DNA of 64,000 nt from Spirochaetales bacterium (GTDB lineage Bacteria; Spirochaetota; Spirochaetia; Treponematales; Treponemataceae), in NCBI GenBank assembly GCA_029098225.1, contig JAQXNX010000010.1, positions 248,001 to 312,000 of the forward strand, written 5' to 3'. The position numbers and the translations under genes were made by a program. Each line of letters starts with the position of its first letter. Position 1 is the first letter of the stretch. This document shows, piece by piece, positions 10,752 to 14,577 of this stretch. The notes below the pieces were generated by a model. The model did not search any database. It saw nothing but the letters and a program-made list of their open reading frames with translations, and had not been told where the DNA came from.

Positions 10752-12914
10752 TTAATATAGCAGATTTTCTATAATTTGTGCAAAGGCTGTATTGTCTTTA
10801 TAAAGCCATTCATACATTGCAGAAGCAGCTACCAGTTTTCTTCCGTATTCACGAGTTTCTGTATAAGGAAGAGTTTCTAAAAATAAATCCTGCGGCATAT
10901 TGCTTTTTTTACCAAAGGCTTCTGTTGTTGTCTGAAGCCATCTTCTTACTCTTGTTATTCCTGCATTGTAAGAAAAGAAGCCCTGTAAAATTGAACCGTC
11001 GCAGCGTCTGATTAAACTGCTTAAATAATAGGTTCCGAATTTTATATTTGTAGAAGCATCTGTAAGTGAATAATCAGAAACTTTAAGGCTGGTTGCAATA
11101 TCGCTGGCTGTAAATTCCATAAGCTGGCAAAGTCCAACAGCGCCTGCAGAGCTTTTTATTTTTGGATCAAAAAAACTTTCACTTCTTGTAAGTGCATACA
11201 TGATTGAAGGATTTAATTCGTAAAGTGCTGAATTTTTTTCTATTTCATCATAATAATCCTGAGGATAAACTAACTGAAGTTCTTCTCTGGTAAAATTTTC
11301 TGTTTTAAGGTTTGCAGCTTTTGCAGCTATGCGCAATGACTGCTGGTAATAAACTTCGTCCGAAGCTGCACATCTTTTTAAAAAGTCAGAAAGATAAAAT
11401 AAAACCTGTGAATCCAGTGAAATACTATTAGAAGACGAAATGCGCTGAAATTCTGGATAAATTAATTCTGGTAATCCGAAAGCTACATAGCCTTCCATTA
11501 AAAGTTTTGCAGAATTTTTTGCAGAATCATCAGCTTCTTTTTTTTCATTCCTGCTATATGGTTTTAAAAGAACACTTTCTAATTCATCATCCTGCAATTT
11601 CAGGCTGTAGGCTGCAAGCAGTTTATAATACCAGGAACTTCCGGAATTTAAGGCGCGGGTCATTGCCTGTTTATAAATATCCTGTTTAGAAACATTTTCC
11701 GGAGGAGTTGCAAGTCCTTCTTCCAAAAGTCTTGCATAAATGTAAGCATATTCACTAACAGATTCATCTGTTGCCTTGCCGTCTATTTCTGTATAGATTC
11801 TGTAAAAATCATTCCAGCGTCCGGCAGTGAGTAAAGAAGAAACCAGACTTTCAAAAAAATCATCAAAATATGCGGCATCGGTCCATTGCTCGCTGTAAAT
11901 GCCAATGCTTTCTATAATTGTATCTACAGAATGACTAAGAGATTCAGAAATTAAATACCAGAGGGCATTGTCTTTTTTAAATGTGTCGTCTGTGGAATTA
12001 AAGGCTTTTTCAAAACAGGTTTTTGCCTGATTATAATAAAGAGAATTATTGCTGAATAATCTTCCGGCATAAAACCAGAAATAATATTCACATTCTGTTC
12101 CGGAATATTTTTGTGCCTGTTCTGCAAAGAAATTTGCGTTTGGAATGTAATCAACACTTCCGTATAAAAAAGATTTTCCTGCATCTGAAATTAACTGAGG
12201 TAATAAAGGAAGTTCATTATTTTCAAAATATCCAAAAAGTTCTTCGGCTTTAGAAGCTGTGTAAGTATAATTTCTTTTATAAAGCTCAATTCTATAGTTC
12301 AGAGCAAAATCTTGTGGAGTATAAGAAATTTCTTCTGTGCTGTTAAAGTCTGGATGATCATATGAATCGCGGTAAAATTGATAATGTTCCGTAGAAATTG
12401 CGCGCGAAGTAAACCATTCAAAAACTTCTTTTTCAAGAGAATCAATTTGCTTTTCGCTAAGAACCTGCATTCTTATTTTTATGCTTTTGTTTTCATCATT
12501 TTGTAAATCTAAATTTTCTGAATTTGTTAAAACTAAATTTGACTCTTTTGCAAGATAAAATTGATTTAATGCTATATAAAGAACTTCGGAATAAAATTCC
12601 TGATTATCTTTGTAAGAGGCTAATAATTTTTGTGCTGCGGAGTTTTTTTCGGGAATGCTGCCAAAAAAGCATAATTGTTCAGCGCTTCTTTCTGCAGCGT
12701 AGAGACTTCCTTTTTTTGAACAGTTTATAAATTTCTGACGGGCTTCTTTTTCTTTGCCTTCTTCAAGAAATCTTAAGCCTACAAAATAATCTGAATCTAT
12801 TCCGAATTTTTTTTGTAAATCTGATTTTGCTGAACAGCTCTGAATAAAAAGAGTAAAAATTATAAGGAAAGAACATATATTAAGCGAATTTTTAAATTTT
12901 TCCACAATTTTCAC
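10752..12914 (-). CDS. Lytic murein transglycosylase, probable lipoprotein
   Basis: The 720-residue protein begins at a GTG with a signal peptide ending in FTLFIQSCSAK, a plausible spirochetal lipobox with Cys near residue 27. A long alpha-helical superhelix of TPR-like repeats fills the middle, as in Slt70. The C-terminal SLT domain has the catalytic Glu in ALTRSESFFDP, then AGAVGLCQLM, and FFSYNAGITRV before the end. It cleaves the MurNAc-GlcNAc bond to form anhydro-MurNAc. It is followed upstream by the LysM protein and GH3 enzyme in the same direction, which makes a wall-turnover group. Confidence 0.9.
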   Translation of the reverse strand: MKIVEKFKNSLNICSFLIIFTLFIQSCSAKSDLQKKFGIDSDYFVGLRFLEEGKEKEARQKFINCSKKGSLYAAERSAEQLCFFGSIPEKNSAAQKLLASYKDNQEFYSEVLYIALNQFYLAKESNLVLTNSENLDLQNDENKSIKIRMQVLSEKQIDSLEKEVFEWFTSRAISTEHYQFYRDSYDHPDFNSTEEISYTPQDFALNYRIELYKRNYTYTASKAEELFGYFENNELPLLPQLISDAGKSFLYGSVDYIPNANFFAEQAQKYSGTECEYYFWFYAGRLFSNNSLYYNQAKTCFEKAFNSTDDTFKKDNALWYLISESLSHSVDTIIESIGIYSEQWTDAAYFDDFFESLVSSLLTAGRWNDFYRIYTEIDGKATDESVSEYAYIYARLLEEGLATPPENVSKQDIYKQAMTRALNSGSSWYYKLLAAYSLKLQDDELESVLLKPYSRNEKKEADDSAKNSAKLLMEGYVAFGLPELIYPEFQRISSSNSISLDSQVLFYLSDFLKRCAASDEVYYQQSLRIAAKAANLKTENFTREELQLVYPQDYYDEIEKNSALYELNPSIMYALTRSESFFDPKIKSSAGAVGLCQLMEFTASDIATSLKVSDYSLTDASTNIKFGTYYLSSLIRRCDGSILQGFFSYNAGITRVRRWLQTTTEAFGKKSNMPQDLFLETLPYTETREYGRKLVAASAMYEWLYKDNTAFAQIIENLLY
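10754..10783 (-). promoter_or_regulatory. Candidate leaderless promoter of the antiporter
   Basis: On the minus strand TTGCAC (10778-10783) and TATATT (10754-10759) are 18 bases apart. The -10 box ends seven bases before the ATG at 10746; the gap AAGCCTT has no SD. It overlaps the end of the upstream transglycosylase gene. Confidence 0.45.
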
Positions 12915-12924
12915 TCTATTTTAA

Positions 12925-14577
12925 TTATTCAGCAGGAATAATAATTGTTGTTCCTGAAATAATATAATCAGGATTTTTTATTCCATTGTAGCGTGCAATA
13001 TATTTGTAACGCCAAGGATTTTTATAGTAAGTATCGGCAATGTCCCAGAGAGTATCGCCCCATTTAATTTTGTAAGAAATATTTTTAGGCTTTTCTACAA
13101 CTGGAGCAGGTGGCTCAGGAATTACTTCTTCTGCTTTTTCTATAATTACAATTTCGTCTTCTTTTGCCTGAGGAACCGGTTCAACTTTTGGCTCTACAAC
13201 AGGTGGTTCTTCTTTTTCTATAACAGGAGGAACTTCTTCTTTTACAATTTGTTCTGTTTCTGTGTAATTCTTTTTTGTAATCAGATTATATTTTGAAGGA
13301 ATAATAAATAAAATAAGTGCTGTTGCAATTACACAGATTATTGCGCAGATAATACAGATTATAACAGGAACTTTTGTCTTTTTTCTTTGTTCTTCACTAT
13401 AATCAGAAGAATTACCGAGTTCTGTTTCTTTATCGTAAAGGCCTGTAAAACTTAGTCCTGAAGCTGGTGCCGGTGAATCATCAAAATCGGCAAAAATGTC
13501 TTCATCCTTATTCACTTTATCATCTCCTAAAGAAATATCATCAAAGCTAGGTAAATCGTCATCGCTGATTAATGGTTCATCAGAATTTTCTTCTGAAGAA
13601 GCTTCGTCTGATATTGTTGTATCTGCATTAAAAAGGTCATCTGAAACTGCAGTATCTTCTGTTGAAGCGAACATGTCATCTGCGGCTGCATCATTGTTTG
13701 CAGCAAATGTGTCATATGTGGTTGCATCGTCGTTTGCAACGATTGTGTCATCTGCAACAGTATCTTCGGTTGAAGCAAAAATGTCATCCTGAGCTGGAAT
13801 ATCATCGTCAGCGGCGGCGCTATCTGCAGTATTTGTAAGATCATCAAAGCCTGGTAAATCGTTTGCAGAAAATTCTTCTGTTGTGTCGCTGCCAGTTGTA
13901 TCTTCTGTTGAAGCGAACATGTCATCTGCGGCTGCATCATTGTTTGCAGCGAATGTGTCATCTGCAACAGTATCTTCGGTTGAAGCAAAAATGTCGTCCT
14001 GAGTGATTGTATCGTCTGTAGAAGCAATATCTTCGTTAGTTGCAAACATTTCGTCTTCAGCTCCATCTGGAGTAAAGGTAACATCTGCCTTGTCGTTTTC
14101 TTCTTTTTGTTTTCTCAATGCTTCTGCTGCAGCTAAAAGACCAGCACCTGCAACTGCAACACCTGCTGCTTTTGCAGCATTTTTAGATTCATCTGTGTTT
14201 GGAGAATCAGAAATTCCATATTCATCTGTTATCATACGTTCCTCTGCAGTTCTGGAAACCAGAGAAATTGTTGTTTTACTTTGAGATCCGGTTTCTGTAT
14301 CAACTATTTTTGCAGAAAGTTTATTTTCATCATCAATGGAAACTATAAAGGAAATATCCGGTTCACCGTTTGGATGTGCAATTAATCCGTTAATTTCTAA
14401 AGAATCAACATATTCAGCATCATCCATAGTGCATAATTCCGAACGGTATAAATCGACCATTACTTTTGTCTGATTATTATGAGCAGTAGTTAAATCTAAA
14501 GATTTTTCTGATGGCATGTTTTCCTGAAGAACTGGATAGAATGAACCGTCTGCAAGCTTTATTCCGATAGTTTTCAT
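12925..14577 (-). CDS. Hsp70-substrate-domain-like / transmembrane / LysM protein
   Basis: The ATG at 14577 is preferred to a TTG nine bases earlier because the SD AGAGG lies nine bases before it. Residues about 35-110 resemble the beta substrate-binding domain of Hsp70 (IVSIDDENKLSAKIVDTETG compares with the DnaK D-x-G-I-L-x-V-S-A-x-D-x-x-T-G stretch). Then comes a helical segment, about 220 acidic residues with imperfect repeats built on DDIFASTEDT and AANNDAAADDM, a membrane helix near residue 400, a Pro/Glu-rich spacer and a C-terminal LysM domain (YKIKWGDTLWDIADTYY). Topology puts the Hsp70-like part inside and LysM in the periplasm. I know of no tested function. Confidence 0.75.
   Translation of the reverse strand: MKTIGIKLADGSFYPVLQENMPSEKSLDLTTAHNNQTKVMVDLYRSELCTMDDAEYVDSLEINGLIAHPNGEPDISFIVSIDDENKLSAKIVDTETGSQSKTTISLVSRTAEERMITDEYGISDSPNTDESKNAAKAAGVAVAGAGLLAAAEALRKQKEENDKADVTFTPDGAEDEMFATNEDIASTDDTITQDDIFASTEDTVADDTFAANNDAAADDMFASTEDTTGSDTTEEFSANDLPGFDDLTNTADSAAADDDIPAQDDIFASTEDTVADDTIVANDDATTYDTFAANNDAAADDMFASTEDTAVSDDLFNADTTISDEASSEENSDEPLISDDDLPSFDDISLGDDKVNKDEDIFADFDDSPAPASGLSFTGLYDKETELGNSSDYSEEQRKKTKVPVIICIICAIICVIATALILFIIPSKYNLITKKNYTETEQIVKEEVPPVIEKEEPPVVEPKVEPVPQAKEDEIVIIEKAEEVIPEPPAPVVEKPKNISYKIKWGDTLWDIADTYYKNPWRYKYIARYNGIKNPDYIISGTTIIIPAE

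Follow-up and report, generated by a model that had tools for sequence, protein, structure and literature searches.

At the head of a spirochete membrane protein sits a true Hsp70 substrate-binding domain (SBD), but the protein itself does not count as an Hsp70 chaperone: tests for the ATPase domain and the lid showed both to be absent. It is encoded in the window, a 64,000-nucleotide stretch of a Spirochaetales contig, immediately upstream of a lytic transglycosylase gene. There is about an even chance that the protein works as an ATP-independent, wall-anchored peptide clamp, the flagellar partner of this transglycosylase in placing or assembling periplasmic flagella. The flagellar link had escaped the preliminary description of this DNA; it lies in the membership of the transglycosylase in the BB0259 family, and in the absence of the SBD gene from genomes without flagellar genes.

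The reading frame at 12925-14577 on the minus strand is real. Its start is the ATG at 14577: a purine-rich GAGAGG lies upstream, and close homologues begin, like the window protein, with MKTIGI. A promoter and terminator scan gave the same counts as shuffled sequence. The features discussed below are as follows.

12925..14577, minus strand: whole gene of the SBD/acidic linker/transmembrane/LysM protein, 550 aa (frame, Pfam, homologues)
14260..14577, minus strand: Hsp70 substrate-binding beta domain by predicted fold, residues 1-106, eight strands (Pfam, PDB phmmer, AlphaFold2 and VIA)
14086..14142, minus strand: Ala/Gly-rich GLLAAAEAL segment, predicted helix 147-164 (AlphaFold2 model, sequence)
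13396..14085, minus strand: acidic, predicted disordered linker, residues 165-394, with ASTEDT/AADDMF repeats (composition, model)
13840..13857, minus strand: LPGFDD, a variant of the family's [ILV]PDF[DE] motif (motif enrichment in family linkers)
13537..13554, minus strand: LPSFDD, second copy of the motif variant (same enrichment)
13423..13443, minus strand: GLYDKET, conserved motif before the membrane helix (family motif count)
13303..13374, minus strand: predicted single transmembrane helix, residues 402-425, N-terminus predicted inside (AlphaFold2 helix, family charge bias)
13081..13302, minus strand: Pro/Glu-rich, putatively periplasmic spacer, residues 426-499 (sequence, model)
12934..13080, minus strand: C-terminal LysM domain, putatively peptidoglycan-binding, residues 500-548 (Pfam, pLDDT)
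10752..12914, minus strand: downstream gene for a flagellar-type lytic transglycosylase of the NF047373/BB0259 family (NCBIfam E 5.9e-189, adjacency)

The likeness of the head to an Hsp70 SBD, placed in the preliminary description at residues 35-110, holds by Pfam, phmmer and predicted fold; its extent does not, the domain running from about residue 1 to 106. The Pfam HSP70 model (PF00012) matches residues 3-105 (E 1.2e-8; 34 bits against a cut-off of 20.6), and this match covers positions 393-497 of the 599-position profile, which is the SBD part only. In phmmer searches of PDB chains, Hsp70 SBDs are matched at E 8.5e-9. The AlphaFold2 model of the domain, built from 31 homologues and of modest confidence (mean pLDDT 64), has eight strands, namely the SBD-beta set. 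The top matches to this model are all Hsp70 SBDs, both in Foldseek (E 5e-8) and in VIA (Z 14.2, rmsd 2.5, 110 residues); the AlphaFold check that had been proposed thus returns the fold that had been guessed. The remark that there is no ATPase domain is also borne out: no remnant of the actin-like N-terminal domain is found, the profile match starting only at position 393 and the protein opening at strand beta-1. The helical SBD-alpha lid is likewise missing; residues 107-146 are predicted to be mostly disordered, with only the short helix 147-164 behind them. An element similar to the GLLAAAEAL segment occurs in 38 of 97 homologues.

Two other matches touch on this fold. The PDB chain 6u42_5F, a ciliary doublet microtubule protein, matches the SBD model (Z 12.9, 13% identity, 105 residues) and is possibly another SBD in a motility organelle. 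The second PF00012 match in the window's genome (G000:C11:67545-67826, locus L002; profile 137-236) lies in a 347-aa frame and probably represents an actin-like protein such as MreB.

The distribution of the family was surveyed by searching 393 genomes across the phylum with a profile of 15 SBDs. The protein is present in all 79 genomes sampled from the window's family. In 78 of these the match has an E-value of at most 1e-31; the copy in the remaining one, the 1.1-Mb G114, is divergent and adjoins the transglycosylase. The SBD protein is further present in most flagellated members of the order, in many other Spirochaetia families and in a few families outside the class (f23, f36 and f49). The preliminary description had asked for a survey of spirochete homologues and had reckoned with a frame that breaks in related genomes; the frame is present in 51 of 59 relatives, and the architecture is kept through the order and beyond. 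When 46 SBDs are placed in a tree, those of the family all fall together behind a single branch (support 100/99), separate from housekeeping DnaK and from a second, flagellar-operon Hsp70, which shows that they have a single origin. Derivation from the flagellar-operon Hsp70 was considered and rejected, since the separation from both this protein and DnaK argues against any recent derivation. Several spirochetes have, in or near a flagellar gene cluster, a second short full-length Hsp70 of 498-558 aa (L208:12859-14532, plus strand; L209:3463-5130, minus; L167:13431-14924, minus). That of L208 comes after fliP-, flhA-, flhF- and flhG-like ORFs, and that of L209 is followed by a J-domain-like ORF; it may be a dedicated flagellar Hsp70. 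Searches of open-access papers turned up no description of the family, whether under the protein itself, the combination of an Hsp70 SBD and LysM, or BB0260 and TP numbers. TP0048, motility-linked in an interactome, was rejected as a member: it is annotated as a bactofilin.

Behind the head, the acidic and repetitive stretch that had been remarked on is indeed extreme in composition, with 70 Asp/Glu and 3 Lys/Arg in 230 residues and repeats such as ASTEDT; the full-length model has disorder at 164-377 and 379-394, and LysM at 500-547. Linkers across the family range from 32 to 664 residues, with medians of 31% Asp/Glu and 4% Lys/Arg. The one membrane helix and the LysM domain of the preliminary description are predicted at 402-425 and 500-548, respectively. 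With a Pfam match at 502-548 (E 3.7e-9; 36.8 bits against a cut-off of 20.9) and a pLDDT of 92-95 in the full-length model, the LysM domain is genuine by these measures and its binding to peptidoglycan putative. Lys and Arg are more frequent before the helix than after it across the family (3.6 vs 2.1), a bias consistent with an N-terminus inside, and the head would then lie in the cytoplasm and the LysM domain in the periplasm. A peptide-binding module inside that is joined to peptidoglycan binding outside, as first suggested, gains support from the architecture, this positive-inside bias and the conservation of the cleft, and independently from homologues with OmpA for LysM. The latter are two rare proteins (L215:4401-5360, plus strand, E 4e-10; L216:555-1544, minus strand, E 2e-9) with an SBD-like head, a transmembrane helix and a periplasmic OmpA domain, a second architecture on the same plan. 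In several families, SBD-transmembrane proteins with no LysM stand beside the transglycosylase (L170, L176, L180, L182 and L183). That the head is joined to peptidoglycan binders more than once speaks for 'head inside, wall outside' as the working plan.

Whether such a head still grips peptides is best judged from its cleft. Conservation was compared in 60 non-redundant SBDs between the remaining domain and 14 positions taken to be the DnaK substrate contacts; an E. coli DnaK segment also entered the test. The cleft is the more conserved (relative entropy 2.77 vs 1.81, permutation p 0.00035), with an excess that is marginal within strands 1-4 alone (p 0.038). The equivalents of I401, T428, Q433 and V436 are nearly fixed, that of Q433 being retained in 56 of the 60 SBDs; the A429 position carries either Val or Ala. 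Throughout the family, Ala takes the place of the arch residue M404 and Leu that of T403, and in the Borrelia homologue the cleft is degraded. These replacements, the missing lid and ATPase domain, and the substitution of OmpA for LysM or its outright loss would all suit a fold that has given up peptide binding and serves only as a structural or protein-protein module, in a passive link between membrane and wall near the flagella. The nearly fixed positions and the greater conservation of the cleft, marginal as this is within strands 1-4, speak against such a tether, which nevertheless keeps a sizeable minority share of the probability. Lidless SBDs bind peptides weakly and reversibly, which would fit a docking site better than a folding machine. 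In the preferred reading, that of a clamp, the cleft would bind a short segment, either from a flagellar or membrane client or from the protein's own linker.

The last of these candidates is suggested by a motif. In the family's linkers, [ILV]PDF[DE] is found 85 times against 1.1 expected from shuffles, and a GLYDKET-type motif lies near the membrane in 64 of 97 homologues against 2.3 expected, ratios that overstate significance, since neither repeats of a motif in the same protein nor its occurrences in related ones count as independent. The residues G379-D382 of the second motif are invariant in A3. Mimicry of the FtsZ C-terminal peptide by the LPDFD motif was rejected, since no such motif stands at the end of the FtsZ encoded in the window's genome. 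Conceivably, the SBD is capped by its own [ILV]PDF[DE] segment, with the acidic tail as a length- or tension-sensing tether and with opening by a competing client or by contact with the wall. DnaK disfavours acidic peptides, and this motif is acidic; in its strict form it is also confined to 48 of 103 members, with repeats within one protein that do not count independently. Its enrichment, its position directly after the SBD (position 1-9) in many order-level homologues, and the Leu-Pro peptides known as ligands of HscA and DnaK SBDs (by PDB titles ELPPVKIHC, pyrrhocoricin, oncocin and apidaecin) keep self-capping in view as an unlikely alternative to an external client of the clamp.

The neighbourhood of the gene points to the flagellum. 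The model matched by the downstream gene, NF047373, is entitled 'flagellar assembly lytic transglycosylase' and is named for BB0259. Borrelia depends on BB0259 for proper periplasmic flagella, and the enzyme is a binding partner of FlgJ (PMC8517470). At 72 of 83 usable loci, the transglycosylase gene lies downstream of the SBD gene on the same strand, at a distance of -130 to +142 bp (median gap 13 bp). Five further loci, where the distance is blurred only by the choice of start or by an N gap, bring the adjacent cases to about 77 of 83; the six that do not conform are L094, where the transglycosylase is 7.8 kb away, L169, L174, L175, L178 and L179. Family f10 has the SBD protein with no transglycosylase beside it; in the flagellated families f16 and f19, conversely, no SBD protein can be recognised next to the transglycosylase. 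Neither protein, therefore, strictly needs the other. Both neighbours named in the preliminary description, a lytic transglycosylase and a GH3 enzyme, are present in the window, but no GH3 gene turned up at the order-level loci that were inspected; farther out, the SBD gene has uppP- and ftsK-like neighbours. The ORF immediately before the transglycosylase in Borrelia-type genomes encodes 335 aa, with an acidic linker, a transmembrane helix and a weak match to the SBD (E 5e-5), and has no LysM; by gene order, it is BB0260. The SBD protein is not mentioned in PMC8517470 under the names BB0260 or BB0261.

Among the sampled genomes, the SBD protein occurs only together with flagellar genes (FliF or FlhA). 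In family f13, all 36 sampled genomes lack the SBD protein and a FliF match, and in five f3 genomes of the window's order (G043, G046, G049, G051 and G057) the SBD protein and FlhA are both absent, related genomes in which the loss may be a single event. G354 and G038, tried as counterexamples with the SBD protein and no FliF match, both have FlhA. The protein is not found in every flagellated member: f16, f19 and f30, flagellated by FliF, have no match at this sensitivity. Four of the five FlhA-less f3 genomes retain the transglycosylase, which implies a role for the enzyme beyond flagella there; it is of the long NF047373 type at L200, L201, L202 and L203. Its immediate neighbour in G046, G043 and G057 is the methyltransferase gene found next to the SBD gene in the flagellated relative G052. 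This pattern of loss indicates that it is the SBD protein, rather than the transglycosylase, that follows the flagellum. Lineage history explains part of the correlation; that it explains all of it, the protein being a general wall-growth or division factor that positions transglycosylase activity in elongation, is improbable, for while the enzyme persists in nonflagellate f3 genomes and uppP- and ftsK-like genes lie nearby, it is the SBD gene that vanishes with flagella in f3, and f13 lacks both genes.

In the clamp model, an Hsp70 SBD-beta, long separated from its ATPase and lid, would clamp peptides in the cytoplasm independently of ATP. The acidic tether and the membrane helix would link it to a periplasmic peptidoglycan module (LysM, OmpA in two homologues, none in others), and the protein, thus anchored to the wall, would mark or secure the site at which the wall is opened for the periplasmic flagellum, together with the adjacent transglycosylase, which it may recruit or contact. 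A more ambitious version, in which the SBD has been reused as an ATP-free, membrane-crossing clamp that couples a cytoplasmic flagellar client to the wall site and its perforating enzyme, and so acts as a positional switch in flagellum assembly, is tentative and holds perhaps half the likelihood of the plain clamp. The way in which spirochetes open their wall at the correct site is only partly understood, BB0259 being the known component. A conserved, unnamed protein that is encoded directly upstream and is absent from genomes without flagella makes a direct candidate for placing the transglycosylase. If true, this would be a clear case of an Hsp70 SBD at work with neither ATPase nor lid, and would reveal what the clamp can do outside the ATP cycle.

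Among known peptidoglycan-binding membrane proteins, FimV and MotB are analogues: these LysM- and OmpA-like proteins also combine one transmembrane helix, a periplasmic peptidoglycan-binding domain and a functional cytoplasmic part. The cytoplasmic head of the window protein differs in being an Hsp70 SBD, and the comparison is one of analogy, with no sequence relation claimed. With the BB0259 system (PMC8517470), the window shares the transglycosylase family of the adjacent gene, and Borrelia has a divergent SBD protein directly upstream; the Borrelia form, however, has no LysM, and the SBD protein is, as far as found, uncharacterised. With the SBD of Hsp70/DnaK, the window protein shares the eight-stranded fold, cleft residues and a sequence relationship, whereas it has no ATPase domain, interdomain linker or lid, is tethered to the membrane by prediction and belongs to a separate clade.
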